Shown one piece after another: positions 4,775-51,266 of a stretch of 64,000 bases of DNA. Position 1 is the stretch's first letter. The number at the start of each line of letters is the position of its first letter. The notes below the pieces were generated by a model that saw only the letters and a list, made by a program, of their open reading frames with translations, was not told the origin of the DNA and did no database searches. The translations under genes and the position numbers were made by a program. The stretch is from a virus. The stretch is from positions 1 through 64,000 of IMG/VR virus record IMGVR_UViG_3300009499_000001. The stretch is one strand, 5' to 3'.

Positions 4775-5129
4775 CGTCTGTCACCTGCCTCTCGATCTGC
4801 GTGCCGCCGTCGAACTCGATTCTGTCTTGACCGAACCACTGCTCGACGACAGCAAACTCGCCAGGGATGAATCCGCAGGGGTAGGCGTGCTGGGTCACCT
4901 TCCACAGTTCAGCGAGGGCCGCGGTGCGCTGAACCTGCAAGAAACAGATCACCGCGCACCGCCACCCGCGGGGAGCCAGCCAGGACGGTGCCTGGTCGTA
5001 CGTGTTGATCACCGCGAGGTACAGAGTTCCCCACAGCGCGCAGCCTAGCCGGATTCCTGGAACCCGGCACGCACGCCACGCCTCACGGAGGTGCTTCAGG
5101 AACACCCGGATTTGCAGTGGTCCGTTCAT
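4767..5129 (-). CDS. Hypothetical protein, 120 aa
   Basis: The start at 5129 (MNGPLQIRVF) overlaps the upstream stop as ATGA; longer alternatives would run into that gene. The protein has four Cys (about positions 21, 30, 58, 85), several Trp and a mildly hydrophobic middle (CALWGTLYLAVI, 30-41) that is too short and polar to call a membrane helix with confidence. Acidic C-terminus. Not recognised. Confidence 0.55.
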   Translation of the reverse strand: MNGPLQIRVFLKHLREAWRACRVPGIRLGCALWGTLYLAVINTYDQAPSWLAPRGWRCAVICFLQVQRTAALAELWKVTQHAYPCGFIPGEFAVVEQWFGQDRIEFDGGTQIERQVTDDE

Positions 5130-5449
5130 CCCAGCCTCCCTCTGATCCACACCCACAGCACGCCCCAGCACCCCTCGAAAGCTAAGACCATGGCCATGAA
5201 CACCACCCACCAAGCAATTACGACGGCCACGGCCAGTTCCTGCATCCTGGTACGCCGTCGGAGCCGGAGTACCTCTGCCCGCGAGGCCGCAAGCACGATC
5301 CCTTGCCGGCGCATGATCGCTTGCTGGGTCATCTGGTTGGCTCGGGCCAGCGTCAGGGCCTGAGACACCTGGGCCTGCTGTCGGCGCATCCGGCCGACGT
5401 TCGGCGTGCCGTCAGCGCGTCGTACCTTTTTGGTCTTGTGTTTGCTCAC
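5126..5449 (-). CDS. Small basic protein with C-terminal membrane segment
   Basis: 107 residues. The first 70 are strongly basic and helical (KHKTKKVRR, MRRQQAQ, RLRRRTR). Residues 71-102 are a long hydrophobic stretch (ELAVAVVIAWWVVFMAMVLA then a Trp-rich part) ending in RGRLG, which fits one or two transmembrane helices. Both ends are ATGA-overlapped with neighbours. A holin-like or membrane-anchoring role is conceivable, but the position between terminase and portal does not support lysis in particular. Confidence 0.6.
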   Translation of the reverse strand: MSKHKTKKVRRADGTPNVGRMRRQQAQVSQALTLARANQMTQQAIMRRQGIVLAASRAEVLRLRRRTRMQELAVAVVIAWWVVFMAMVLAFEGCWGVLWVWIRGRLG

Positions 5450-6687
5450 CAGTCCACCTCTCCACTCCGTTCAGCCGCCCGGTCGCGTTCCTTGAACTGC
5501 TTGTCCCGCCAAGCGAGGCTGCCGGGGGGTGCGGGATCGACCTCGACCACCTTGCGGAACTTCGGGAGGTCCACGCACGCTCGGAACGCGAGCGCGGAGC
5601 CCACCACGAGGTCCCCATGCCTCTCGCGAACCGCCGGCGGGAGACTGACCAATCTCTGATGCGTGATCCGGCCGGCCTCGTCGTAGATGTACTGCTGGTG
5701 CTGTTGGAGGAGGGTCAAGGACCGGATGATCGGCCTGTGGTGCTGAAGGGCGTCCATCCACTTCCCGAACAAGTACGGCGACGTCGCCTCCCCGCCAGCC
5801 CAGCCGAGTTGGTCTCGCCGGACCACGTACTGCTTCGACGTGTCGATGCTGTGCCACATGCGCCCGTAGCCGGCGTCGTCCCAGATAGACCTAATCGCGG
5901 TGATGCCGTGCATTTTGCGAACACAACAGATCAAGGCGTCGTTGTAGTACCTGGCCACTGCCGCCGCGAATCTGCCCAAGTTGGCCGGTTTGATCCGGTT
6001 GTCGGCCAGTTCACAACACTGCTCAAGTCGGTCGGCGAAATAGCCGACGATCGTGCTGTCTGAGGCCTCCACCCCCTCGGACACATCCATGCCCAGACCA
6101 ACTGCCCGGGTGACGTGCTCGACGTGAGTTGGTAGGTCAGGCGGCTGGGCGTCGGGTGGTGCGTAGACGGCCAGCCTGCCCTCAGCACGCCGCACAAGCC
6201 AGCGCTCCAGGGCCTTCCGGCGCTTGTCCTCCCCGAGCTGGAAGAACAGGCGGCTGAGAACCACGCGGTCCTCCGTGTCCCTGTGGATCTTGCGTTCGCC
6301 GCCGGTGTACGCAAATCCCTCGGGCAGCTCCTCGCAGAACTGACGCTCGGTCATGCCGACGGGTTCCAGGCCCCAATCCATTCTGTACGCCGGGTCGCGG
6401 AGGAACTGGCGCTGGTGGTCCAGCCAGGACCCCTCGAAGACAGCCTGGCCCTTCTGTGCGGTCCAGTCGAGCTCCATTTCCTTCCGCCACCGCCAGGAGT
6501 CCTTCCAAGTTCCGTCCGGGTTCTGGACGCAGCCCAACCGACGACGTTCGCGCACGAGGATCTCTGGGGTGAAGGCGATTGGGTCGGCAGTGTAGTGCAG
6601 ATTCACCACGACGATGTCCCGATGGGTCGGCAGCACCGTGAGGCCCGGCATCAGCGTGCGGGGGCGGGTTATCGTCAGACCGGTCAT
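5446..6687 (-). CDS. terL: Terminase large subunit, C-terminal nuclease part (split gene)
   Basis: 413 residues forming the RNase H-like nuclease half of a terminase large subunit. GMDVSEG (about 199-205) supplies the first catalytic Asp (D201), and HGDLVVGSALA (about 357-367) matches the family's last motif with D359. The place where the middle acidic residue is expected reads LICCVRK, so that residue may be changed. The ATPase half is a separate upstream gene whose TGA overlaps this ATG (ATGA). The first 190 residues before the nuclease presumably carry linker and C-terminal ATPase elements. It should cut concatemeric DNA during packaging. Confidence 0.75.
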   Translation of the reverse strand: MTGLTITRPRTLMPGLTVLPTHRDIVVVNLHYTADPIAFTPEILVRERRRLGCVQNPDGTWKDSWRWRKEMELDWTAQKGQAVFEGSWLDHQRQFLRDPAYRMDWGLEPVGMTERQFCEELPEGFAYTGGERKIHRDTEDRVVLSRLFFQLGEDKRRKALERWLVRRAEGRLAVYAPPDAQPPDLPTHVEHVTRAVGLGMDVSEGVEASDSTIVGYFADRLEQCCELADNRIKPANLGRFAAAVARYYNDALICCVRKMHGITAIRSIWDDAGYGRMWHSIDTSKQYVVRRDQLGWAGGEATSPYLFGKWMDALQHHRPIIRSLTLLQQHQQYIYDEAGRITHQRLVSLPPAVRERHGDLVVGSALAFRACVDLPKFRKVVEVDPAPPGSLAWRDKQFKERDRAAERSGEVDW

Positions 6688-24520: not shown

Positions 24521-25900
24521 CTATTTCCCTTCCGCGTCAGCCTCGATGTGCTCGGCGATCGGGGTGTCCGCCAGGGTGGCGCCCTTGACCGCCCCATTTT
24601 CAATGATGACGGAACATTCCTTGCCCTGGCCAACTCTTTCAATCCATATCTGAGCGTCGTGCGCCTCGGCCATCTCGGCCACCAGCCGCAAGCTATCGGC
24701 ATCCAGCAGCGACCCGTCGCGGATCAGCAGGATCTTGAGCTTCGGGTTCATGGCCAACCCCATGGCCACCGAGATACGGAGTTTCTCGGCGCTGGAGCAA
24801 TTCTCGAACGGGAGGTCCTTGAAGGTCACCCGCTCATCGTTGAAGCCCAGCCCCTGGATCGGGAATTCGGCCTCACGCAAGGCCGCAGCCTTCTGCTCGT
24901 CGAATGCGTCAATGGCGGCGGTGAGCCCATCGGCCTCCGTCTGGACCTGTCCCAGCCGTGTGGCGAGCTTGGCGTGAGCTTGGTTCTCGCGAACCTTGCG
25001 GTTGACGCCGTCGGCGCTCATGTGGGCCTGGTGCAGCGGCTTAAGGTCAATGTCCTCCAGGTCGGCTACCTGCGGCTCAAGCTCGGCGATTCTCTGGCGA
25101 TGTGCCCCCAGGCCCTCGTTGCGTTGCTCGGTCCGCGCCGCTATCGCAGCGGTCAGTTCCTGCTCACGTCGTTGCAGTTCCCCGATCTGCCGGCGGAGGT
25201 CTTCGAGTTGCCCCCGTTCCTGGGCCTCGGCGCTGGCGATCATGGCGGCTTCCCGATCAATTTCGGCCTGCGCGGCTTTCAAATCGGCGCGAGCCCCATC
25301 GTTCGCGTCGTTGTGGGCCTTCGCCTCCCAATACTCGTCCAGCAGCGCCCTGGCGTCGACCTCCTCGGCCGGGGCATCGTCGTGGTGAGGCACGGCCTCA
25401 AGCTGCGACTCCAGGGCCCTGATGTCCCGGCGCACGCCCGTGCGGTTCTCAAACAGCCCCTCCCGGCGGGCGTCGAGGTCGGTGAAGTCCAGTCCGACCA
25501 ACTCCCGCAAGGTCTCGGCCTGTTGGCGCGGGGCTTGGCGGGTGAAGGCCAGGGGATCGAAGGTCAGCTTGCCCGTCAGGGCGTCCAGGACGGCCTGGGG
25601 GGTCGGTAGCTTGGCCCCATCGGTGCCGGTGACCGCCAGTGTCCCCCCGCCGCGGGCGGTGAACGTCCGCGTCACGGTCAGTTCGCCCAGATCGCACACG
25701 ATCTTGGCTTTCTTCGTGCCTGTGCGGACGGGCTTGTCGCACACCAGGGCCTTGCCGCCCAGGGCGTAGGCGATGGAATCCAGAACCGACGTCTTGCCCG
25801 CCCCGTTGCGCCCGCCGATGACGACCATGTCGCCGTCCGGGGTGATCTCAACGGCGTTGAGACGCTTGACGTTCTGGGCTTCCAACTTCACGATCTTCAT
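24521..25900 (-). CDS. SMC/RecF-like ATPase of the recombination cassette
   Basis: 459 residues. Walker A GRNGAGKT at 30-37, long coiled coil about 150-330, ABC signature-like SSAEKLRIS near 370, and a Walker B-like LKILLIRDG where the usual Asp-Glu is Asp-Gly. The catalytic Glu is therefore apparently missing, though a later Glu or Asp may compensate. Similar ATPases accompany phage RecT/exonuclease pairs and are thought to act like SbcC/Rad50. First gene of the recombination block, with AAGGAG before its ATG. Confidence 0.75.
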   Translation of the reverse strand: MKIVKLEAQNVKRLNAVEITPDGDMVVIGGRNGAGKTSVLDSIAYALGGKALVCDKPVRTGTKKAKIVCDLGELTVTRTFTARGGGTLAVTGTDGAKLPTPQAVLDALTGKLTFDPLAFTRQAPRQQAETLRELVGLDFTDLDARREGLFENRTGVRRDIRALESQLEAVPHHDDAPAEEVDARALLDEYWEAKAHNDANDGARADLKAAQAEIDREAAMIASAEAQERGQLEDLRRQIGELQRREQELTAAIAARTEQRNEGLGAHRQRIAELEPQVADLEDIDLKPLHQAHMSADGVNRKVRENQAHAKLATRLGQVQTEADGLTAAIDAFDEQKAAALREAEFPIQGLGFNDERVTFKDLPFENCSSAEKLRISVAMGLAMNPKLKILLIRDGSLLDADSLRLVAEMAEAHDAQIWIERVGQGKECSVIIENGAVKGATLADTPIAEHIEADAEGK

Positions 25901-38507: not shown

Positions 38508-41500
38508 CTACCCTCCCAGAACCGCCCTGGCCTTCGCGAACGCCTCGGCGGCGGCTGTGTCGTCCCGCTCAAGGGCTTCCTTGCAGAGCCGTGTGTACTT
38601 CGACCGAACCGAACCCCTGGCCTTCGGGTAGACCCGAGCGACGGGGACTTTCAGCTTGCGCGCCCAGCCAGCGATGGTTCGCTTGTTCTTTCGTTCCTGG
38701 TCGGTATCCCACGCCGTCCCGGTCAGCGCCGCTTCGACCTTGCCCTCAAGCAATTCGGTGTACGCCAGCCGGACTTCGTCGGCGCTTTCCGCCGGCGTCG
38801 CCATGAAGGCCAGCTCCCCATTCATCGCGGCCTTGGCCATCTTGACCATGCGCTGCTGAATCGCCCGGTAGCCCTCACGTTTGGCCTCATCAGAAGCCTC
38901 CGAGTCGATCAACGCCCTGCCCTGCTTGCGGAGTTCGGCCAAGTGCCGGCTGATGCGGTGCATGGCGGACCGTTTGGCGCGCTGAGCGTGAGGGAAGTCC
39001 CTGCCGCGTTGCTTCGCGCTGCCGTGCTGGCGGTCCAGGTCCTCCATCTCCCGGTAGAAATCATTGAACACCCGCGTCGTGCCGGGCCGCAAGAAGGCCC
39101 GACCGATCGCCGGGATGTCTTGGAGCCCCGGGGGACGCGCGCCCTTCTCGGGAAGGACGCCGGCCTTCCGCAGAACCGTCTCGGCACTGCGGATACCAGC
39201 GACCGGCATGCCGCCGGTGTAGCTCCGTAGCAGGTGTTCGATCTTGGCTGGCGAGACGTTCAGCAACCTGCCGAGGGCCTTGGCGGTCTCCGTCGTGTAC
39301 TGGTAGAACTGGTCTTGAGGTTCCAGGCGGCGCAGGGCTTCGGACACAATCGGCCGCTGGCGGAACCAGTCCCATCCCCCCGGTCCGAACGCGACTTCGA
39401 TGGGTCCCTTGATTGCTGTCGGCGCGATCGGCGGCATGAAGCTGCGAATCGACTCTGCGGCACCTTCTTTGAAATGCTTCGGATCGTTGCGGTACAGGGA
39501 TTCGCAGGCGGCTTCTGGCAGCGAACCGAACAGCATGCCCCACTCGAACGGCCGCGGGACGCGGATGATCGCGTCACCAACGGGTACATGCCAATAGCGA
39601 TACTTCTCCCACACCGGAAGGTCGATGTACCAGTCCTCGTCCTTTATCAACCACCACAAGAACAAGGTCGGGCCGGTAATCCACGCCAGGCCCCGCAGCG
39701 TTGATCGCACGGGATGCTGACGGTAGGTCTGGATCATGCGGTTGGGACCTTGAATCTGGGCGTTGTGGAAGGGCACGACCCGATTCAGCCACATCGCGAC
39801 CGAGCCCCCCTCGCGGAAGTCCACGGTCACGTTCGCCGCCCGCATCTGGGCGTCGAGATATTGAGCCAGGGTGATCGTGTCGCCCGGCTTCCAGCCGGTT
39901 TCTTCCAACGCTGCCTTGAACTCGGCCAGTCGGGGCCCCATCTCTGTGATGGAGAACAGTTGGCGCAGCGATTCGATCGGATGCTTCATCCAGTTCAAGA
40001 CTTTGCGGGTTGGGCTATTTGCAAGAACTTCGTCCAGCAAGTCCTGTGTGAAGACTCGGTCGATGGCCAAAGGCTGCGCCATCTCACCGCCCCCAGCTTT
40101 GTGTAGCCGAGCCACTTCTCTGCCGAAGACATGGTCCATGACGCCGCAAATGTTGCGGTAGATGAGAGATGGCAGGGTAGCCTTGCGTCCCTTGGTCCTC
40201 GTCTGCATGATCGCCGTGCCGGTGTCGCGCGTGGGATTCGTGTACCAAGCGAAGCCAGCCCGCAGTCCCGTTGTGGACAGCCGCAACATCCTAGCGGCCT
40301 TGCCGAAAGTCCACTCAACGATCTTGGGTAACTCAAACTGCTGGTCCACCGCCATCATCGCCCGGTACATGTCCGGGGCGACCTCATACATCCGCAGCTT
40401 GCCGTGTTGCCACAGGACGATGATGTTGTCCTTGGCCTTGTGGTGGTACACGTTCTGGAAGATATTGATAACGGCGTCCAGGTCGGCATCCTCCAGGGCC
40501 ACGTCCGCCGCTTCGAGCTGGGCCTGGAGTTGGCGAATCTGCGCGGAAGTAACTCGGCCACCCGGCGCGACCTTCTCGACGTACTTGCCCATCCCCTCGT
40601 AATGCTCGGTCGCCTCGACCAGCATCTTGCCGACGCGAATCTTGTCGGCGAGGCTGAAGATTCGGTCGGCGTACATCATCGAGCTTTCCAGCGGGGAGAT
40701 AATCGGGCGGCCTGATCCCTTCATCCTCCGAACCACTGATGGCAGACCAGCCAAACGGCCTCCTCCGACACCCTTCCCCTGCCGTAGGTTCTCGGCTTCG
40801 AGGCTTATCATCCTGGGAACATAGTGGGGATACATGCGGCGCATCTTGACTTTCCCTGCCGGATCCAAACCGCCCGCGTCCATGCCATAATCAAGAAGCT
40901 GATCGTGCCACTTCGTGGTTCCGTCCGCTGCTTCTACCCAGCCTGGCCGGTCGCCGAATTGCCGGACGTTGAACCGTGCATCCGCCAGCGAGATGCCGGG
41001 ATTCTTGCCGACAGCATGGATGTCGATGGCGTGTCGGGAGTACAGGAAAATCTCAAACTCAAGTTGCGTCTGCGGATCCCGCAAGTCCTCCATGATCGGT
41101 TCCCAGACTTCCGCAAGGCTCGGACCGACCCTGTTGCCCATAACGTCCGGCATGTAATCCAGCACTGCCCGGCGCGCCCGGGCGGGGCCGGCCATGCTGG
41201 TGACCTTGGCCATCTGGGCGAATCGGTACTCGGCGGGGATGTCCGCGAGCTCCGTCGTGTCCGCCATGGCGTACATCGCCCGCCACAAGGGCTGGAAGCG
41301 GTTGACGAACTTCTCCAGGCCCTTCTGCCAAGCTTCCTTGGGGTCTGCGAACACGGCTCGCACCGTCTTCCAGCGCGTGGATTTCTTGTCGATCTGGGCC
41401 CCCACTCGTGCCACGGCGCCCTGTGCCCGCCATTGGGTGATCGTTGCCTTGGCGTCGGCGATTGCCTCGGCGTACTCGCTGGTGGGCAGGAAGTCCTCCG

Positions 41501-44500
41501 TGAACCACTCGTACATGAGCGGGGCGGCGTCCTGAGCGTTCTCGGTGGTCAAGTAGAGCCGGACGAACTCCGCGACCCCTTCTTTGGTCCGTTTCTTCTC
41601 CGGGTCGTAGTCCAGCTCGCGGACTTCCGCTCTCACGTCCTTCGACAGCCGGCGAGAGATTCGTTCCCGCTTGTCGAGGTGGTGGGCGACTTCATGGCAT
41701 TGAGAGGCGACATCGCCGTATCCCTTCGTCCGGGCAACTTCCTCGAACCGCTTGTAGATGCCCGCGTACGGGCCGCGGTAGTGGCCCGTCCGCAAGGGAA
41801 CCCCGAAGCCTTCCGAGAGCACCGTGCGGATGTCGTTGATGCTGACGGGCCGGTCGGCCGGTTCCATCGAGACGGGGACTGGCGGCGCGGCGACCGGGCC
41901 GTGATCCACCTCGCCACTCCTGTTCAGGTATCTGACATCGGTGACCGGCCGGCTCTCGGTGACGCGCTGGAATACCTGGAGGGCTTCGTCGCCGGTCGGG
42001 ATGAAGTACCGCACCTTGTAGCCGACGCGCTCGCGGAAGACGCCGTCGGCATCGAGTTCTATGTGAAAGCTGAGGTCGGGACCCAGGACCTCCAGGCGCG
42101 TCTCGCCGCCCACGAGCTTGGACCGGATCGTCCAACCGTTGCTGAGAACCAGGATGGTCTCACCATCGAGGGTCTTGTCGATCATCTGCTGGGGCGTGAG
42201 ATCCATCTTCGGCTTGTCGGCACCCAGGGCACGCAGGATCCCAGCTACGTCGTTGGCGTTGATGATCCGCCCCAGCAGCTCCTCCCCTTCGTTTGTCAGC
42301 ATCCGTCGTACACGCGGTCTCGCGCCGCGAATCCGGTCCCAGATCGGCAAGAGAACGCCCGTGATGAGGTGCTGTTCGCTCTCGCGGAACTCCGGCAGTT
42401 TCTCGACCTGCTCATCCCAGAGTCGTCGCGCCTCATCTTCATCGAGCCGTCGCCAGTATTGCTCGTTGTAGTCGTTGTCGATCCGCTCCATGTCGATGAA
42501 GTCGTGGCCCTTCTGGTCGATCTGGCGGTACTGTCGTACGACCCGACCAGTCCTCGTTTCGGTGTGCGTGGGCCCCTGGACGATGGCGTAGACCTTCCCT
42601 GCTCTTTTGGACTGGACGTAGAACAGGATGGGATGGCCGGCCCGGTGTTCGCCGGCCTGAAGGTTGTCCCATGTCACCGGGACGATACGAGTCGAGAGCT
42701 TGACCTTGACGTACTTGGTCTCCGCGCCCGTTTCCGCATGGGTGTAGACAACGCGGTCTTCCACCTTGTCAATTCGGTCGGCACGGACTGTCTCAATCCC
42801 GCGGTCGATGGTTCCGAGGCGAATGGCAGCGTCGATCCTCTCCAAACGGCGCTGGTCAAAGGCCTCGAAAATCTGGTTCTGTGTGTCGGTCGGGCAGGAC
42901 AAGAGCCGGTTCAGGAATTGCCGCATGACCGGCAGGGTCTGGCGGAGATTGCCCTGGCCGTCGATGAGCCTCAGGGCCAGCGCTTCCTGCACCTCGCCAA
43001 TGCTCAATCCCTCCACGTCATCTCGGTACAACTCTCGCCAGAACTGCGATAGGGCCTCCCGGGCTTCGGTCGTGTGCAGGTTGTCCTCGGCGCTGAACAG
43101 GCCGCCACTGGTCGCCTCGCGCTGGCCTTTGGTGAGGGCCCCGAGCTGGTCAAGCCTCTGGGCAATGACGGACGTGAACCGACGTTCGGCGCTGAGATCA
43201 GTGGTGCACAGCGTGTAGATGGGAGCACTGGCTTGATTGGAACGGTGAGTTCGACCCATGCCCTGGAAGGCCTGCTCGGCACGGTAGCCAGGCTGAATGA
43301 TGTAGTGGGAACGCCGCTGCTGGTTCTCATGTGCCAAGGAAGCGTGGTAGCTATCACCCGTGTTGCCGGCCCCGGACATCACCAGCAGGAATTTCTTGCC
43401 GCCCATGAAAGCGGCGATTTCTGCGGGATTCTCTCGGTCGGCGTTGCGGCTGAGACGCTCTCGCTTTCGCGTCCCATCCTCCTGTAGGACTTCCACGACG
43501 CGCTGTCTTCGGCCGGTCACTTCGGCGACGTTCTCCACGGCGAAGTGGTCGAGGATGTAGTCCAGCGGGCCGCGCGGCACAGACAAGGCACCCAGCTTGT
43601 CCAGCAATTGGTCCCGCATCCTCACGGCTTCCTGGTTCAATACGGGATTGCCGTCCGAGTCAACGACCGGCTCCATGGTAACATTGCCCTGGTCATCCGT
43701 TTCCTCCTGGTATTGTTGAACGGGGAAGGTGTGCTCTACAAGTTGCATCAGCGAATCTCGCGGCGTGATGTCAATATCATCCAGGTCCTGCTCGCTTTGC
43801 ATCCCAGCCAGCGCCCGGGCCGTGGCAGCTTCGTTGGTATTGACCAGTTGGAGCACGACGCTACGTCCTTCAGCCAAGTCCTTTTCCGCGGCCTTGACCA
43901 CGGTGGGCATCTGCATGGACATCAGGATCTGATTGAAGAATCGCAGGTTTGCGCCCCAGAAGGCGCCGCGAGCCCTCATCTTCGCTCGCGCGTTGCCGTC
44001 TCCCCCAGTGAGTTGCAGCGCTTCCTCGATGTTGTTCAGCACGATCCGCCAGGCCCTGGCGAACGTGTCGTACGCCTCCCGCTGGTTAGGCCTCAGGGTA
44101 TGTTCGACGCGTTTGTATTCAACCGTCCCCTTCTCGGTGCCATCGTTGTAGGAGATGTTGCGGGCCATGTAGGAACCCATGGCCTTCATGTCCCGGGCGA
44201 CCGTTTCCATCGCCGCTACACCACTTCGCGCGATCTCGTTGATGAAGGCCGCTTTGTTGGGGAACGGCGTACCACGTCCCCACAGTCCGAGGCGATCCGC
44301 ATACGCGTAGTTCGCCACATTCGTTGCCGCAGTTGCCGTTGCGTAGACCATGCGACAATTCGGCAGGCGGTTCTGCAACTCGACTCCGACGCGAGCTTGT
44401 TGCGAGGGTGCGCGGGTTCCGAACGTCGTTCGGATGGCGATGGCGTTGCCCATGTTGTGCGCTTCGTCGAACACCAAGACGCCATCGAAGTCCTCTCCGA

Positions 44501-47500
44501 CCCAGTCGAAGACTTGGTCAACGCGCTTGCGAGGTTGCTGCCCTTTGGGCGCCTTCTTTTCCGTGCCCCGAAGCGTGGAGTACGTCATAAACAGAATCCC
44601 ACGCTTCGCCCGGAGCGGCGCGTAGCTCTTCGCCTCGAAGATGAGCTTGGGATCTTGCCCCAAAGCTACCCATTCCTCCCGGATTCGATCCAGGAGCCGT
44701 TTGTTCTGAGTGATCCAAACGACCTTCCGTCGGCCGCGCCGCCAGTTGTCGAGGATGACGGCGCAAATCTCGCGTGTCTTGCCGACGCCAGTGCCATCCC
44801 CGAACATGAAACCTCGACGGACGGGCCTCTCGCCCTCGGGCGCTGGCAGGAATTTCTCGTGGGCCTGGCCAGCGTAGACCGCGGCTTCAACCTGGATTTC
44901 CGACAAGGCACCGCTCTTGATGATGTCCTGGGGAAGGTCGGGCCGGTAGGTCGGCACGGGTGGCATGACCGTCGCCATCGCCGCGGACTCGACGATGGAG
45001 CCTGGGTGTGGTTGGGCCCCTGGAATCTTCAAGCGCGCGGGCCGGTACGGCTCGAAGATTTCCTGGGTCAGTTCGGCCTTGCGCTCCCGAGCGCGCTCCC
45101 CCGCCTCTATAGCGATTCCTGGTGCAGGAGCGGGCACACCTTCTGGAAGTTCTCGAACAGGTTCTCCAACAACACCTGGGCGAGCGCCCGGGCGCCCAGC
45201 TTCTCCTTCTGTTGGGCGAGCCGCTGCGCCCCTTCCGCCGGGTCGTCCTTCGGGTCCGGCAGGAGGAGCCGTTGGGCGTCCTCCGGCTCTGCGCCCACCA
45301 GGTCGTCCACCCGGTCTTGGAGCCACCCCTGGAACTGCTCCCAGTGGCCTACCAACTGCACCTGCTCCAGGAGCCACCGGACGAGCTGGACGCTGTGCAG
45401 GTAGTCCGGGTCGGGCTCCTGGCCTTGCTTCAGGAGCAATTCCCGGCACCGCTGGTTCAGGGGATTGCTGTTCAGTTGGACCCGTTCGCTCATTTCGGAC
45501 TCCACTCATATTATCTATGAATTCCGCCAGATTGTCAACCCTTGCGGAGACCACAGCGGCGGTCGTCGGCCCCGTCTTGTCGATCACCAGGACGCGCGTG
45601 GGGAAGGCCGTGCCGTACTTGCGGTAGATGCCCCGCTCCACAGCGACCACCGCCCGGATGCTGTACTCCTTGCCGATCCGCTTCGCCCAGCGCGTGAAGG
45701 TCCTGGTGTCCTGTCCACGCATCGGGGCCCCGACGATCGCCACAACCCGGCCACCGTCTTGCAGCAGATTCAGGGCGGCCTCGACGTGCTTGAGATCGGT
45801 CCCGATCATCCGTTTGTCACCCATGCGCTGGCCGGCCCGGGAGAACGGCGGGTTCATCAGGATCACGGTGGGCCGAGGCAGGCCCTGTTCGGCCAGTCGG
45901 GCGGGCAGGATGTTGTGTATCTGCTCGGCGTCTTCAGTGAAGACCGCGTCGAGCCCTAGTTGTCCAAGTAGGCCCGCCCGCTGGCCGCTGATCTCGTTGG
46001 CGTAGACCTGCGCGCCACCCGCGTTCTGTGCGTGGATGGCAATGCTGCCGGTTCCGGCGCTGGGCTCCAGGACCACGTCGTTCGGGCCGATGTTCGCCAG
46101 CCAGGTCACCGCGTAGGCGTAGTGCGGCGGTGTCGAGAACTGTTGGAGCAGGTCCTTCTCGCCGCTGCGGTTCCGCTGGGCGGGGATCCGGTCCAGTTGG
46201 CCTTCCAGGCTGTCGGCCTCGATCTTGGCCTGCTCGGCAGCGACCCTTGGATCCGTCTTCCGCTGGAGGTACTGATTGATACCCAATTCCAGGCCGTCGT
46301 AGGCCTCCGAGGGACCGTATGTCCCCTCCGCCCGGGTTCCGCCCCAGACTTCGTCGGCCATCGAGAAGAAGGTGGCTTGGTCGATGACATCGCCAGCGAC
46401 AAGCCGCTCGATGACACGCCGGGCTAGTTTGATCTGGGGGTTGGCCTCTGTGGCGGCCGGGGCTGGTGCTTCGGCCGGTGCGACACCCATCGCCTGCCGG
46501 GCAATCGCCTCCAGGTCTTCGTTCGCGAAGCCGTCGACTGCCTGAGGGGTCGTCAAGGCAGTGCGCATATCCAGGGGGACCTGATACCGAGCGGCCGAGA
46601 AGATCGACTTGTAGTCGTCGGCGGTGAGCTTCGCGGCGATGTCGGGCATCTCTGCGGCGAGCTGCTGGACGAACTTGACGAAGGACTTGATCCCGGCCTT
46701 GATGTAGAGGCCAGCGATTCGGGTCGCAATGACCATCCCCTCGGCGTCCAGACCCATCGGAGTCCGGTTGCGGAGAATCCCCCCGAGCTGCTTCTTCAGC
46801 CGTTCGAGTTCGGCCTGATCTTCGGCGGAGAGGTTCTGTGTGATGCTGGGCTTTTTGGCTTTCGCGGGTTCGGTGGGCTTGGGGGACACCTCGGCCGGGG
46901 CTTCTGCCGGACGGGCGGCTGGCGTTACAACTTCCAGCATTTGCTCGATGAGAGCAGCATCGCCCACAACGTGATGCGCCCTGCCTACCTTGCCGGGGAT
47001 CGGATGCTCGTCGGCTCGAATGAACTTCACGCTTCCGCCGGGCATGGTCAGCTCGAAGTCGCCCATACCGAGATGCGCCACCTTGCTGTCGGGTATGGCC
47101 TTCTCGACAGCGTTCAAGAAGTTGGTGTCGACGTAAACGCGACCGTCATCCTCGCGGACGTAGTGCGGGGCCGTGTCAATGGGCGCGGGTGCCTCCGCTT
47201 CGGCGGGCTTCGCCAGGGCTGCATCGGCCCAATGTTGGCCCCGGTAATCCTTGAGCACCGCAGGCGCCACTTCCTTGCCTTCCTCGACCGCGCGCCGTAC
47301 CAGGATTTCGTGATCCCGAAGACGGGCGGCGTACGCTTCCGCAGCCTCGACGCCCAGGGACTGTTCCTTCTGCCCCACCTTTCGGGGCCGCTTTGTCGTG
47401 ATCCGATAGCGCCCGAACGGGCCAATGCCAGCCGCGTTGTATGCCGGCGGCTCTGTGCTGCTGATCTGCACCTTGCCGCGGAGGGGACCTGCCGGGTTGT

Positions 47501-50500
47501 CGAGATACCGGACATTGACCTCCCAGATGGGAATGGTCTCTCTTGTGGGACCTTCCCCGGCGTATGCTTCCCGTGTCATCTGCCAGGGCTCTATCAACTC
47601 CGTTGGCTTCTCTGTCGGTTCGGCCGCCTCGATGTCCGCCAGCGCCTTGTCCGCCCATTCCTCCCCCCGGAATTCCTCAAGCAGCTTGGCGGGTATTGGC
47701 TTGCCTTGACGGAGACGGCTTCGGATGATCTGGCGTCGGCCGTCCTTGCGGGCTTCGGGGATGACGTCGCTCGGTGGGCGGACGGGTTCCGCTGGCGCAG
47801 CTTCTGTCGGGGGTCTCGCCCAAACGCCCAGAATGTTCGTTCCGAGTTCCCCTTGGTCATCCAGCAGATATGGACGGTAGCCTTCAGAATAGAGCTTCTC
47901 CTCATCCCTCTCGGATTTCACCCGGCACCTAGTGATCTGATAGCCTTCGGCTTTCAGCTTGCCCACGGTGTCGTCGTAACGCTGCTGAGCCTGCTCCAGT
48001 TCGGCTACGCTCTTTGCCTCCGCCGCTGCCTTTGGCTCGGCACCCTCCTTGAGCCAGTAATCGGCTTGGGACTTCACCTCGGCATCGCTCATGCCGAGCA
48101 ACTGCTGGTAGAATTCCTCCACCTGCGCGTCGCTTCGCGTCTTCTGTGCCTCTCGGGCCGCCTCAGCCGTCGGATGGCCTTTGCCGATGATGGTCCCTTC
48201 CGCACTGCGGTAGGCGTAGTCGGCGATGCGGGTCTCGCCCGTGTGCGTGACGCCCAACGGGAACCCCCCTGCCCTGTACCACTTCCCGTCCGAACCCTTG
48301 AGTTCTCGCACAGCAACGATTTCAAGAGGGGGTCGCCGGGATGCCTCTGCGATGCGACGGGCCAGGTCCTCCTTGCCTGGGGCCTCGGCAGGCTTCTCGG
48401 CGGGGGTGGGTTGTACTCGGTCTGCACGTACTTTCCGAAAGTCCACGCGGGCAATAACGCTTGCCGCTTCGGTTGCATCGTTTACCCGGTCCGTAGGGTC
48501 TTTCACGCGCGCCTGTAATTCGGCGGCTGCTTTGAGGACCGTTGGATTATCTGTATCTGCACCTTCCACGACGTGCCGAAAGAACTCGCGCGCTACAGCG
48601 GCCGGGTCATCCGCTTCCAGCAAGGCCCGCGCAGCCGCCTTGGTCCCGTAATGCACGCCGGGAGCTGCAAGCAAGTCTTCAATGGAGGGAAGGCCGCGCT
48701 CGCTGGCCGCCTCGTATCGCACGGCAATTTCAGCAGGTGTCTCAGCGGGGGTGGGTTCCGCCGCCGTGAACTTCTCCGGGCTCCACAGTTCGGTCTTCCG
48801 GTGCGTGGAGTCGTCTATCGCCTCCCACACTTCCGTCGGCACGCCGCGGACATCGACCGTCTTCTTGCCGATGACCGTGACGGGAATGGACCGGCCACCG
48901 CCCATGTCGTAGGTCCCCTTCGCCCCTGGGGTCAAGCCGGGTGCCTCTGGCGCTTCCTGAGGGGGCTTGGCCTCGGGTTTGGCTTCTGGCTTCGGTGCGA
49001 CCTCGGCTGGCGGCGCTTCCGTCGGCACTGGCTCGGCAATCCCGCCTTCGCGGGGTTCCAGCGGGGCTTCCTCAGGCCGTTTCTCGACAAGTTCCGGGGC
49101 GGGCCGGGACACTTCGGCCGGCATCTCGGTCGGCACGGCTTCGGGTCGGACGCCTTCTTTCCGCCGCCGTTCCCCCCTCCTGGTTCGCCTCTCGGCCAAG
49201 CCTTCGCCGACGGCGCCGGCACCCCTCATGGCTATCCCAGGACCACCCCAGATCCCGAACGCTACCCCCTCGGCCAGCAGTTGCCGGCCGCTCGGGATAG
49301 CGTCCAGCAGCCACTTGTTGACGTCCGTGGCCTCGGATTCGTGGAGGTTGAACGCCACGCGCAGGACTTCGGCCACCCGTTCCTCGCCCATCTCCTCCAG
49401 GACGCCGTGGAAACCTCCAGCAGCCATCATGCGCCGCCACTCGGCCGTGGTCCTACCGGGCGCCCTGCCCAGCCACCGGATCCGCAGAGCCTTCTCGATC
49501 TTCCGCAGCACCGGGACCGCCTTGGGGAAGCGCTTGAGGACCCCACGTCCGATCAGGTGGGCGCCGCGAGTCAGTTCTACGCCCAATTCCTCCGAGACCA
49601 GCTCGACGAAGGTGTCGCCTATGCCCTTCAGCAGGGCGGTGACGGGCTTCTGGCCGCCCCGGGCGATCTCGATGTTGCCCATGTCGTCCACAGCGAACTG
49701 CTTGGGCAACATCCGTTCGAGCGTACGCTCGACGACCATGGGGTGAGTGGCCGTTCGCACCGCCCCGGCCGCACCGTACTTCATGGCGAACATGGCCATC
49801 CTGCCCGTCCGCGTGAGCGCCTTCCATCCCAGGGCGCGAAGACCAAGGCGAGCCGCACCGGCCTTGACCGCACCTGCCGCCGGTGTCAGCAGCATGAACT
49901 CCCCGAAGAAGGCGGGCATGGCCGAGAGGATCTCCGCGGTGTGGCCCAAGAAGGTCTTGCCGCGACCATGCACCTCCGCCTGTTGGTCCAGATGCTTCCG
50001 CACGATGGCCAGGGCCCGGTAGTGCCTCTGGGCGTCCTGATCCCGCCGCTTGAACTCCGCGTCCGACATCAGGGCCGGCTCTTTCCGATCTCGCCGGGCA
50101 CGTTCGGCCGGCAGGTCGACGAAGATCTCCCGCCGATCATCCTCACTCAGCGTTTTCAGCGTGTTGATGGATTGGTGCAGGTAGGCCTGCTGTTGCACCT
50201 TCGGCATGTAGTGCAGAAACGGAACCGCCCACAGAGGTTCCTTCATCAATCGCTTGTACCAAGTCTCCCACCAGCCGATCTTGCCGCGGTCCTCCCACCG
50301 TCGCTTCTCCGCAGCCTCGCGCGCCTTGCCTGCGGCCACATCCGCCGCCTGGGCCGCGCTGTCGACCGGCCTGCCCCGCCTGTCGTACTTGCCGATCTCC
50401 TGGGGATTGCCGTCTGCATCCACGGTATAGACACCCACACTGCGATGCAGCTTGTCCTCCCATTCGGCGGCCGGGAAGATCCAGAATTGGGCATTCTTGC

Positions 50501-51266
50501 CGGCGTAACGCTCCTGCCCATCCGCCAGTGCGGCCTCGACGCCCTCTGGGAGCTTCTCGGGGACCGGGCCGATCACCTTGCCCTGCTCGTTGAGTTCGAC
50601 GAGCTGCTGGTCCTGTGGCCGGATCGTTGGGGGCAGGCGTCCGCGACGCTTTTCATCCTCACCTCCTCGGAAGGTGAATATGCGGAAGTCCCTGATGGGT
50701 TTAACGGGTTCGGCCATGCGACCCGCGGCGAACAGATACGGCAAGGCTCTCAGGCGGGCTTCCGGCGGCATGGTCCCCCCTTGGACCATTTGCTCAGGCG
50801 TCATCGGCTTGCCGGCCTCAGCCGCGCCGATTACCATGTTCACCCGCTCGTAGAACGCCTGCCGCACGGTCTTGGGCAGTTCCTCCATCTGCAACTGGAC
50901 GCCCTGATCGAGGTGCTTGCGAATCTGGCCGACCCGGGTGAGGTCCAGTTGGGTGACCGAGTCGGGCAGGCCGATCTCGGCTGCGGTCGGCTTCGGTGCC
51001 GGTTTCGCCCCTGGTTTCCCCGTTGCGGTCACCGTTGCGGTCACGCTGGCGCCGGGAACTGCTGCGGTCGCTGTTGTGGTTCGAGATACTTCCGTCGGCG
51101 TTGCGGTCGGTGCCTCTGGCGCGGTCGCGTCGGCCAGCCCCAGCCGCTTCATCCGGTCGTCCAGGCTCTCCTGGCCGGGTTTGGGCTGCGCCTCGGCCGG
51201 TTGAGGCTCACCGAGTCCCAGCCGACGCATGCGCTCCTCCAGGCTTTCCGTCACTGCTGCCGTCAT
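38508..51266 (-). CDS. Giant polyvalent protein: adenine MTase, SBNO helicase, zincin, LPD38-like
   Basis: 4,252 residues, one frame. N-terminus: a repeated SLEERMRRLGL / SLDDRMKRLGL unit and a linker; about 440-530 hydrophobic, perhaps membrane-active. About 1700-1900: N6-adenine MTase with EPSAGTG and NPPF. 1925-2054: Pro/Gly/Arg linker with an overprinted frame. About 2080-2950: Strawberry-notch-like SF2 helicase with GDGTGVGKT (near 2160), DEAH (near 2266) and GRTHRSNQ (near 2672). About 3190: HEVAHHLDKR, a zincin HExxH. About 3680-4200: LPD38-like region with NPTRDTGTAIMQ. The MTase-helicase core resembles P1 DarB, an antirestriction protein injected with DNA. Polyvalent proteins (Iyer and colleagues) are packaged in virions and enter with the genome. 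Domains are named by pattern, not by search. Confidence 0.85.
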   Translation of the reverse strand: MTAAVTESLEERMRRLGLGEPQPAEAQPKPGQESLDDRMKRLGLADATAPEAPTATPTEVSRTTTATAAVPGASVTATVTATGKPGAKPAPKPTAAEIGLPDSVTQLDLTRVGQIRKHLDQGVQLQMEELPKTVRQAFYERVNMVIGAAEAGKPMTPEQMVQGGTMPPEARLRALPYLFAAGRMAEPVKPIRDFRIFTFRGGEDEKRRGRLPPTIRPQDQQLVELNEQGKVIGPVPEKLPEGVEAALADGQERYAGKNAQFWIFPAAEWEDKLHRSVGVYTVDADGNPQEIGKYDRRGRPVDSAAQAADVAAGKAREAAEKRRWEDRGKIGWWETWYKRLMKEPLWAVPFLHYMPKVQQQAYLHQSINTLKTLSEDDRREIFVDLPAERARRDRKEPALMSDAEFKRRDQDAQRHYRALAIVRKHLDQQAEVHGRGKTFLGHTAEILSAMPAFFGEFMLLTPAAGAVKAGAARLGLRALGWKALTRTGRMAMFAMKYGAAGAVRTATHPMVVERTLERMLPKQFAVDDMGNIEIARGGQKPVTALLKGIGDTFVELVSEELGVELTRGAHLIGRGVLKRFPKAVPVLRKIEKALRIRWLGRAPGRTTAEWRRMMAAGGFHGVLEEMGEERVAEVLRVAFNLHESEATDVNKWLLDAIPSGRQLLAEGVAFGIWGGPGIAMRGAGAVGEGLAERRTRRGERRRKEGVRPEAVPTEMPAEVSRPAPELVEKRPEEAPLEPREGGIAEPVPTEAPPAEVAPKPEAKPEAKPPQEAPEAPGLTPGAKGTYDMGGGRSIPVTVIGKKTVDVRGVPTEVWEAIDDSTHRKTELWSPEKFTAAEPTPAETPAEIAVRYEAASERGLPSIEDLLAAPGVHYGTKAAARALLEADDPAAVAREFFRHVVEGADTDNPTVLKAAAELQARVKDPTDRVNDATEAASVIARVDFRKVRADRVQPTPAEKPAEAPGKEDLARRIAEASRRPPLEIVAVRELKGSDGKWYRAGGFPLGVTHTGETRIADYAYRSAEGTIIGKGHPTAEAAREAQKTRSDAQVEEFYQQLLGMSDAEVKSQADYWLKEGAEPKAAAEAKSVAELEQAQQRYDDTVGKLKAEGYQITRCRVKSERDEEKLYSEGYRPYLLDDQGELGTNILGVWARPPTEAAPAEPVRPPSDVIPEARKDGRRQIIRSRLRQGKPIPAKLLEEFRGEEWADKALADIEAAEPTEKPTELIEPWQMTREAYAGEGPTRETIPIWEVNVRYLDNPAGPLRGKVQISSTEPPAYNAAGIGPFGRYRITTKRPRKVGQKEQSLGVEAAEAYAARLRDHEILVRRAVEEGKEVAPAVLKDYRGQHWADAALAKPAEAEAPAPIDTAPHYVREDDGRVYVDTNFLNAVEKAIPDSKVAHLGMGDFELTMPGGSVKFIRADEHPIPGKVGRAHHVVGDAALIEQMLEVVTPAARPAEAPAEVSPKPTEPAKAKKPSITQNLSAEDQAELERLKKQLGGILRNRTPMGLDAEGMVIATRIAGLYIKAGIKSFVKFVQQLAAEMPDIAAKLTADDYKSIFSAARYQVPLDMRTALTTPQAVDGFANEDLEAIARQAMGVAPAEAPAPAATEANPQIKLARRVIERLVAGDVIDQATFFSMADEVWGGTRAEGTYGPSEAYDGLELGINQYLQRKTDPRVAAEQAKIEADSLEGQLDRIPAQRNRSGEKDLLQQFSTPPHYAYAVTWLANIGPNDVVLEPSAGTGSIAIHAQNAGGAQVYANEISGQRAGLLGQLGLDAVFTEDAEQIHNILPARLAEQGLPRPTVILMNPPFSRAGQRMGDKRMIGTDLKHVEAALNLLQDGGRVVAIVGAPMRGQDTRTFTRWAKRIGKEYSIRAVVAVERGIYRKYGTAFPTRVLVIDKTGPTTAAVVSARVDNLAEFIDNMSGVRNERTGPTEQQSPEPAVPGIAPEARPGARPGLPAQRPARPVAPGAGAVGRPLGAVPGVAPRPGGRPGGRRAGGRPTAPPAGPEGRPGGRGAAARPTEGEAGRPGARPGVVGEPVRELPEGVPAPAPGIAIEAGERARERKAELTQEIFEPYRPARLKIPGAQPHPGSIVESAAMATVMPPVPTYRPDLPQDIIKSGALSEIQVEAAVYAGQAHEKFLPAPEGERPVRRGFMFGDGTGVGKTREICAVILDNWRRGRRKVVWITQNKRLLDRIREEWVALGQDPKLIFEAKSYAPLRAKRGILFMTYSTLRGTEKKAPKGQQPRKRVDQVFDWVGEDFDGVLVFDEAHNMGNAIAIRTTFGTRAPSQQARVGVELQNRLPNCRMVYATATAATNVANYAYADRLGLWGRGTPFPNKAAFINEIARSGVAAMETVARDMKAMGSYMARNISYNDGTEKGTVEYKRVEHTLRPNQREAYDTFARAWRIVLNNIEEALQLTGGDGNARAKMRARGAFWGANLRFFNQILMSMQMPTVVKAAEKDLAEGRSVVLQLVNTNEAATARALAGMQSEQDLDDIDITPRDSLMQLVEHTFPVQQYQEETDDQGNVTMEPVVDSDGNPVLNQEAVRMRDQLLDKLGALSVPRGPLDYILDHFAVENVAEVTGRRQRVVEVLQEDGTRKRERLSRNADRENPAEIAAFMGGKKFLLVMSGAGNTGDSYHASLAHENQQRRSHYIIQPGYRAEQAFQGMGRTHRSNQASAPIYTLCTTDLSAERRFTSVIAQRLDQLGALTKGQREATSGGLFSAEDNLHTTEAREALSQFWRELYRDDVEGLSIGEVQEALALRLIDGQGNLRQTLPVMRQFLNRLLSCPTDTQNQIFEAFDQRRLERIDAAIRLGTIDRGIETVRADRIDKVEDRVVYTHAETGAETKYVKVKLSTRIVPVTWDNLQAGEHRAGHPILFYVQSKRAGKVYAIVQGPTHTETRTGRVVRQYRQIDQKGHDFIDMERIDNDYNEQYWRRLDEDEARRLWDEQVEKLPEFRESEQHLITGVLLPIWDRIRGARPRVRRMLTNEGEELLGRIINANDVAGILRALGADKPKMDLTPQQMIDKTLDGETILVLSNGWTIRSKLVGGETRLEVLGPDLSFHIELDADGVFRERVGYKVRYFIPTGDEALQVFQRVTESRPVTDVRYLNRSGEVDHGPVAAPPVPVSMEPADRPVSINDIRTVLSEGFGVPLRTGHYRGPYAGIYKRFEEVARTKGYGDVASQCHEVAHHLDKRERISRRLSKDVRAEVRELDYDPEKKRTKEGVAEFVRLYLTTENAQDAAPLMYEWFTEDFLPTSEYAEAIADAKATITQWRAQGAVARVGAQIDKKSTRWKTVRAVFADPKEAWQKGLEKFVNRFQPLWRAMYAMADTTELADIPAEYRFAQMAKVTSMAGPARARRAVLDYMPDVMGNRVGPSLAEVWEPIMEDLRDPQTQLEFEIFLYSRHAIDIHAVGKNPGISLADARFNVRQFGDRPGWVEAADGTTKWHDQLLDYGMDAGGLDPAGKVKMRRMYPHYVPRMISLEAENLRQGKGVGGGRLAGLPSVVRRMKGSGRPIISPLESSMMYADRIFSLADKIRVGKMLVEATEHYEGMGKYVEKVAPGGRVTSAQIRQLQAQLEAADVALEDADLDAVINIFQNVYHHKAKDNIIVLWQHGKLRMYEVAPDMYRAMMAVDQQFELPKIVEWTFGKAARMLRLSTTGLRAGFAWYTNPTRDTGTAIMQTRTKGRKATLPSLIYRNICGVMDHVFGREVARLHKAGGGEMAQPLAIDRVFTQDLLDEVLANSPTRKVLNWMKHPIESLRQLFSITEMGPRLAEFKAALEETGWKPGDTITLAQYLDAQMRAANVTVDFREGGSVAMWLNRVVPFHNAQIQGPNRMIQTYRQHPVRSTLRGLAWITGPTLFLWWLIKDEDWYIDLPVWEKYRYWHVPVGDAIIRVPRPFEWGMLFGSLPEAACESLYRNDPKHFKEGAAESIRSFMPPIAPTAIKGPIEVAFGPGGWDWFRQRPIVSEALRRLEPQDQFYQYTTETAKALGRLLNVSPAKIEHLLRSYTGGMPVAGIRSAETVLRKAGVLPEKGARPPGLQDIPAIGRAFLRPGTTRVFNDFYREMEDLDRQHGSAKQRGRDFPHAQRAKRSAMHRISRHLAELRKQGRALIDSEASDEAKREGYRAIQQRMVKMAKAAMNGELAFMATPAESADEVRLAYTELLEGKVEAALTGTAWDTDQERKNKRTIAGWARKLKVPVARVYPKARGSVRSKYTRLCKEALERDDTAAAEAFAKARAVLGG
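45107..45493 (-). CDS. Candidate overprinted gene inside the polyvalent linker, 128 aa
   Basis: In the frame one base off the polyvalent frame, ATG 45493 (MSERVQLNSNPLNQRC) has GGAG 7 bases upstream and runs to TAG 45107. It is Leu/Gln/Glu-rich, helical and includes Trp, Tyr, His and Cys at normal rates (LVRWLLEQVQLVGHWEQFQG). By hand count about 9 in 10 third positions are G or C, as in real genes here, while the polyvalent frame over the same bases is Pro/Gly/Arg/Ala-rich with about one third G or C at third positions. It may be a real nested gene or the former separate gene that became the linker. No family recognised. Confidence 0.5.
   Translation of the reverse strand: MSERVQLNSNPLNQRCRELLLKQGQEPDPDYLHSVQLVRWLLEQVQLVGHWEQFQGWLQDRVDDLVGAEPEDAQRLLLPDPKDDPAEGAQRLAQQKEKLGARALAQVLLENLFENFQKVCPLLHQESL

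Follow-up and report, generated by a model that had tools for sequence, protein, structure and literature searches.

Background

Does the linker of a giant, virus-encoded methyltransferase-helicase conceal a second gene, or is it what remains of a former one? The locus considered here lies within a polyvalent ORF in which a shifted frame carries its own start codon. A preliminary description offered two readings, namely that a second protein is nested between the methyltransferase and the helicase, or that a formerly separate gene was read through and became the linker.

Polyvalent proteins with a Strawberry-notch-like ATPase were described by Iyer et al. in 2017, with a Methylomonas example included, and the role suggested for the methylase-helicase class is to shield phage or plasmid DNA from restriction as it enters a cell (PMC5512222). 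The host protein of the present locus belongs to that class, as does the methylase-helicase dyad of P1 DarB (PMC5512222). No overlapping gene is mentioned in the text of that paper, where "overlap" gives 0 hits and "nested" is used in another sense.

Methods

The window, which is the whole stretch of DNA analysed, comprises positions 1 to 64,000 of a virus record spanning 70,891 bases. Relatives were gathered from viral contigs and bacterial genomes using the methyltransferase-linker-helicase segment as the query. In total, 108 methyltransferase/Strawberry-notch-helicase loci, the window included, were measured between HMM anchors placed at the methyltransferase end and the helicase start. Synonymous codon preference was scored on the remainder of the polyvalent gene, and pN/pS was computed for 15 chosen pairs of loci.

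Results

The polyvalent ORF of 4,252 residues is open end to end on the minus strand (38508..51266). An N-terminal part without a Pfam match is followed by a DNA adenine methyltransferase-like domain (45567..46142, minus strand), for which the N6_Mtase Pfam match is weak and below cut-off and the PHROG matches to phage DNA methyltransferases are clear. A stop-free linker (45057..45563, minus strand) then leads into a Strawberry-notch-type SF2 helicase, also on the minus strand, composed of a first part (44064..45011; Pfam AAA_34, E 5.9e-100) and a second part (42789..43568; Pfam Helicase_C_4, the C-terminal domain of Strawberry notch homologues, E 3.6e-76), and the chain ends in a C-terminal LPD38 region. 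With a predicted methyltransferase, a SWI2/SNF2-type helicase and an LPD domain in one chain, the ORF can be classed as a polyvalent protein. Elsewhere in the window, a 459-aa ATPase-like ORF with an SMC/SbcC-type N-terminus occupies 24521-25900 and matches phrog_1499, whose function is unknown (E 5e-101).

The nested ORF (45107-45493, minus strand) begins with ATG at 45491-45493, runs for 128 codons in the +1 frame relative to the polyvalent ORF and ends with TAG at 45107-45109, such that the third position of a polyvalent codon is the second position of a nested codon. Just 5' of the ATG the nested frame contains a TGA stop, only four codons away, and then a GTG. Across the overlap, GC content at the three codon positions reads 0.78/0.31/0.90 for the nested frame and 0.90/0.78/0.31 for the polyvalent one, compared with 0.68/0.47/0.76 for the whole polyvalent ORF. 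The Shine-Dalgarno-like sequence, ATG and GC-rich third positions that had been reported for the shifted frame are therefore borne out, as are the A/T-rich third positions of the linker frame. The GGAG itself (45500..45503, minus strand) is likewise present, although it lies 6 bases before the ATG and not 7 as first given.

The codon statistics of the two frames, which had been proposed as a check, agree with this. Over the overlap the preference score is +0.36 in the nested frame, equal to the best real windows of the polyvalent gene, versus -0.40 in the polyvalent frame. Scores for the polyvalent ORF's 118 other windows of 128 codons span -0.05 to +0.36, none being as poor as -0.40, and +1-shifted windows elsewhere in that ORF range from -0.30 to +0.11. 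Linker status does not explain the swapped codon phase, because GC3 stays near 0.72 in a further linker of this protein that is rich in Pro, Ala and Glu (codons 681-800). At 48387-48746 the polyvalent ORF also has a stretch of low GC3 (0.56-0.60) in which the codon phase is unswapped. Codons of the S-x-S pattern are an automatic outcome of a Pro/Gly/Arg/Ala linker. Since synonymous shuffling of the linker in the window preserves an open nested frame in 56% of cases, its openness alone is no proof of a gene in the window, and it is the comparison with relatives that decides the question.

Among the 108 loci, both anchors share one frame in all but one (L058, a contig in which consecutive residues of the overlap are unknown). 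Linker length is bimodal, exceeding 400 nt in 75 loci and falling between 150 and 300 nt in 33. A +1-frame ORF of ~108-145 codons occupies the equivalent place in 74/75 of the long-linker loci, which argues against the absence of conservation that had been named as grounds for rejecting the gene. It is absent from all 33 short-linker loci, whose longest +1 stretches have a median length of 145 nt. The one long linker without the ORF (L033) has an extra segment instead. A segment NLSAEDQAELERLKKQ...AGLYIKAG lies 5' of the methyltransferase in the window (about 46600-46880) but within the linker in L003 and L033, a displacement that looks like domain shuffling around the nested gene. The preliminary description had also envisaged a one-base error breaking the polyvalent frame into two genes; this is contradicted by the two-frame architecture, which is found in plasmids of cultured strains and in many independent assemblies.

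Nearly all nested starts lie directly after the methyltransferase domain, behind a TTGGAGG-like Shine-Dalgarno sequence, and in most loci at +70 nt from the methyltransferase anchor. The start region overlaps the polyvalent codons E-G-[IV]-R-N-[DE]-R, which end that domain, and the consensus upstream of the start is TTGGAGGG-AT-AGAA-ATG. All 66 distinct loci analysed start with ATG, most of them at the equivalent position with normal Shine-Dalgarno spacing; L022, counted apart from these, has a GTG at a nearly equivalent place, one codon upstream. A Shine-Dalgarno-like motif precedes 57/66 nested starts, versus 103/1148 other +1 ATGs in the helicase region, and the equivalent of the window's GGAG site is kept in relatives. 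The nested ORF thus has a conserved start codon and ribosome-binding site of its own.

Substitutions point in the same direction. The loci compared pairwise differ in the overlap mostly at third positions of nested codons, and in the neighbouring helicase at third positions of polyvalent codons. For most close pairs, nested pN/pS in the overlap is 0.11-0.46, rising toward 0.7 in saturated pairs, while the polyvalent frame gives about 1 or above; the flanking helicase shows the reverse pattern (0.00-0.31). Between L043 and L046, amino-acid identity is 0.77 in the nested frame, 0.54 in the polyvalent frame and 0.54 in the never-used third frame, and in relatives generally the amino acids of the linker are conserved no better than those of the unused frame. 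These comparisons indicate purifying selection on the nested protein.

Across the 66 distinct loci the nested frame is open in 66, the polyvalent frame in 65 and the third frame in none (mean 9.6 stops). Upon synonymous shuffling of 65 related loci, the summed log10 P is -63 for an open nested frame given the polyvalent protein and -166 for an open polyvalent frame given the nested proteins and local codon usage, values which serve as an index and not as independent p-values, the loci sharing ancestry. The two frames are thus kept open beyond chance. The linker amino acids look unconstrained even though their frame is kept free of stops, and the nested protein is under selection; therefore both frames are being preserved, the nested one for its sequence and the linker for continuity. 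In two Chromatiaceae metagenome contigs (L115 and L148), the linker frame carries one in-frame stop and the nested ORF is intact, which points either to an error or to a host gene that is truly split.

An iterated profile (HMM) search from the window joins 51 of the 66 distinct nested proteins into one family, with members in Pseudomonadota, Thermodesulfobacteriota, Bacillota, Spirochaetota and SAR324; many of these members come from bins assembled out of metagenomes. The gene is also present on complete plasmids from cultured strains, namely the conjugative MEALZ_p of Methylotuvimicrobium alcaliphilum 20Z and a plasmid of Methylomonas sp. LL1. The copy in Methylotuvimicrobium buryatense 5G (L046) predicts the tryptic peptides NLLDTGEIQEPLLLIAK and IAYNPATELAALVLIR. 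The inspected records of MEALZ_p and the Methylomonas sp. LL1 plasmid list the host CDS alone, because annotation pipelines commonly discard ORFs within larger genes.

The remaining 15 proteins, mainly of a Planctomycete type with some Clostridial and other ones, occupy the equivalent site and have no profile link to the family. Planctomycete-type loci (L066-L071, L088, L094 and L095) carry a conserved +1 ORF of their own within that linker, with an N-terminus MGEFA..., a GGAGG Shine-Dalgarno sequence and a start at ~ +88. Alignment with the main family by hhalign gives a probability of 0.2%, which does not show homology; the models of both types are all-helical with a similar helix order. Gut Clostridial-type loci (L014, L015, L023, L083 and L084) keep the nested start, Shine-Dalgarno sequence and length, and their proteins, which do not match the family profile, have either diverged very fast or been replaced.

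Other searches with the nested protein gave little. As a single query it had zero matches in viral contigs, and a profile built from three rows recovered one relative. Isolated phages searched by tblastn with nested proteins, and plasmids searched likewise with one Firmicutes copy, returned no matches, and Pfam and PHROG searches gave no significant family common to members, only isolated, weak, single-member hits. The 45-row alignment contained no stretch conserved enough for a pattern scan. Weak PDB sequence matches to sigma-70 (best E 0.014) were judged to be chance.

From the same 45-row alignment, AlphaFold predicts an all-helical 128-aa protein with a pLDDT of 93.1 and a pTM of 0.86, and a Planctomycete-type protein is modelled with a pLDDT of 93.5 from 9 sequences. 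Foldseek found no match to the nested model at E <= 0.001 in the PDB or among viral models; similarities to Dps and Cas7-11, with E about 0.5-1 and TM under 0.3, were dismissed as chance. With no known structural relative, the fold gives no functional clue. Leucines, alanines, prolines and asparagines make up most of the conserved columns, with an N-x2-[PS]-[LI]-N signature near the start. Because these columns include no conserved polar set that hints at catalysis, HNH-like or other, the protein is more likely binding or structural than enzymatic. Net charge has a median of -8 and ranges from -20 to +4 (pI 4.05 to 9.83). An acidic DNA-mimic anti-restriction protein of the Ocr/ArdA kind was considered as a family trait and set aside, since negative charge is not conserved and no solved mimic was matched by Foldseek at E <= 0.001.

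About 1,060 genomes or records were searched, and almost all matches to the nested protein were themselves nested. Two are free-standing: in Thiocystis violacea (L156, reverse complement 4835-5177) and in a member of the Desulfovibrionales (L154, reverse complement 5206-5581), the species being paired with the entries in listed order. Each starts with its own ATG and has no methyltransferase or helicase nearby. The Thiocystis copy shares a contig with a nested copy 28 kb away; it lies downstream of a gene for a KorA/TrfB-like repressor and behind an SD-like GGGAGG, and has three stops in the former linker frame. The Desulfovibrionales copy adjoins a DUF4126 gene and still has no stop in the old linker frame, which is what an origin by copying from a linker would predict. 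These copies show that the nested protein can occur independently of the linker. A further match (G443, E 7e-4) falls within a frame of 821 codons and was discounted as probably due to chance.

About five changes, grouped by clade (Sphingomonads, Azospirillum and others), account for the short linkers on a tree of the methyltransferase-helicase. Distances in the nested gene track those in the flank (Mantel r 0.76, 0/999 permutations). Read without a fixed root, the pattern is most simply that of an old gene inherited with its host gene and lost several times.

Discussion

The ORF at 45107-45493 (minus strand) is very probably a functional gene, wholly nested on the same strand in the +1 frame of the methylase-helicase linker. 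Of the two readings first offered, the second protein is strongly favored by the conserved start, ribosome-binding site position and frame in 74/75 long-linker loci, together with purifying selection, a confident fold and free-standing homologues; a dead gene turned linker is contradicted by the continuing selection on the nested frame. Ribosomes would initiate internally on the polyvalent mRNA at the conserved nested start, yielding an acidic helical protein of ~15 kDa in step with the giant protein.

As to function, we suggest that the nested protein may be a non-enzymatic partner (a small subunit, chaperone or regulator) of the same methylase-helicase, acting at DNA entry in anti-restriction, a proposal to which we give somewhat less than an even chance. 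Such a protein would bind the methylase-helicase and assist or restrain it. The evidence for this role is genetic linkage, and two copies reside away from any methylase-helicase. A fuller and more tentative proposal is that an undescribed family with a new fold has long resided out of frame in this linker, in phages and conjugative plasmids of several phyla, with the linker serving mainly as a frame-transparent carrier and the protein as an obligate subunit or regulator made in step during DNA invasion.

The gene could instead encode an independent counter-defence effector that is merely lodged in the linker. The two free-standing copies fit this, as does the mostly acidic, small, helical character shared with some DNA-mimic inhibitors, but linkage to one host gene is near-strict in both phages and conjugative plasmids and the acidity is not conserved. 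We consider this reading unlikely, and less likely than a partner of the methylase-helicase.

Internal Shine-Dalgarno sequences can stimulate frameshifting and the nested frame is +1, so that a programmed frameshift near this site, producing a fusion of the methyltransferase and the nested protein, might replace internal initiation. This is improbable given the ATG in all 66 distinct loci, mostly at one position with normal spacing, the window's TGA four codons before it and the free-standing copies with their own ATG.

A selfish insertion is given less credence still. In ShiLan-type genes, a 195-aa HNH homing endonuclease is hidden out of frame in phage DNA methylases, with a GTG start, no detectable ribosome-binding site and a disjunct distribution, and the host-frame product is a presumed harmless loop (PMC11855218). 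The layout is the same as here, an out-of-frame ORF in a phage methylase gene with a stop-free host frame, in one mycobacteriophage case next to a helicase domain (PMC11855218). Unlike that enzyme, the present protein is a helical non-nuclease with an ATG and a strong, canonical Shine-Dalgarno sequence, maintained across phyla and transmitted together with the gene that hosts it. No HNH or other nuclease family is matched, the conserved columns comprise a hydrophobic core plus Asn and Pro, and in place of a patchy, homing-like distribution independent of the host gene there is near-ubiquity in the host clade, losses by clade with few changes and covariation with the flank. The ShiLan case is a close parallel in structure that fails on nuclease domain, ribosome-binding site and distribution.

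That the nested frame is a relic of a gene read through into the linker and is now untranslated has even less to recommend it: the codon phase of the linker does belong to the nested frame, but close pairs still show low nested pN/pS and the start and Shine-Dalgarno sequence are conserved. Least credible is a chance frame: where the genome is GC-rich, a Pro/Gly/Arg/Ala-rich linker would of itself leave the +1 frame open, give it G/C third positions and make its product look helical in composition, and openness of this sort is what the window's shuffles would allow. This is refuted, on sequence comparison, by the nested-frame substitution pattern. The conserved start and Shine-Dalgarno sequence, confident fold and free-standing copies also oppose it, as does persistence of the ORF in lower-GC relatives, for which the odds of an open frame by chance are close to zero (for example L051 and L062, open in 0/2000 shuffles).

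Out-of-frame nested genes are of a known kind. In phage genomes, the Rz/Rz1 spanins comprise a nested +1 gene with strong functional linkage to its host gene; Rz1 differs in being a small lipoprotein for lysis, an unrelated setting. P1 iddB is antisense inside ddrB, unlike the same-strand gene here, and +1 open stretches of up to 177 codons occur in P1 darB, a figure for openness alone. A small functional protein is encoded out of frame, on the same strand, in a giant-protein gene by comS within srfA of Bacillus subtilis, as cited in PMC12350097. As represented in that citation, comS has a single documented host gene and an unrelated function, unlike the present linker-located family of several phyla and two kinds of mobile element. 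No account of this family was found in the open-access literature searched.

Conclusions

The nested gene is a rare overlapping gene for which the comparative evidence runs deep, and because it has persisted so long, the mutual constraints between a nested gene and its host frame can be put to the test. It raises the question of whether giant proteins generally shelter hidden genes in their disordered linkers, and whether the methylase-helicase of phages and conjugative plasmids may need an extra factor when DNA enters a new cell.
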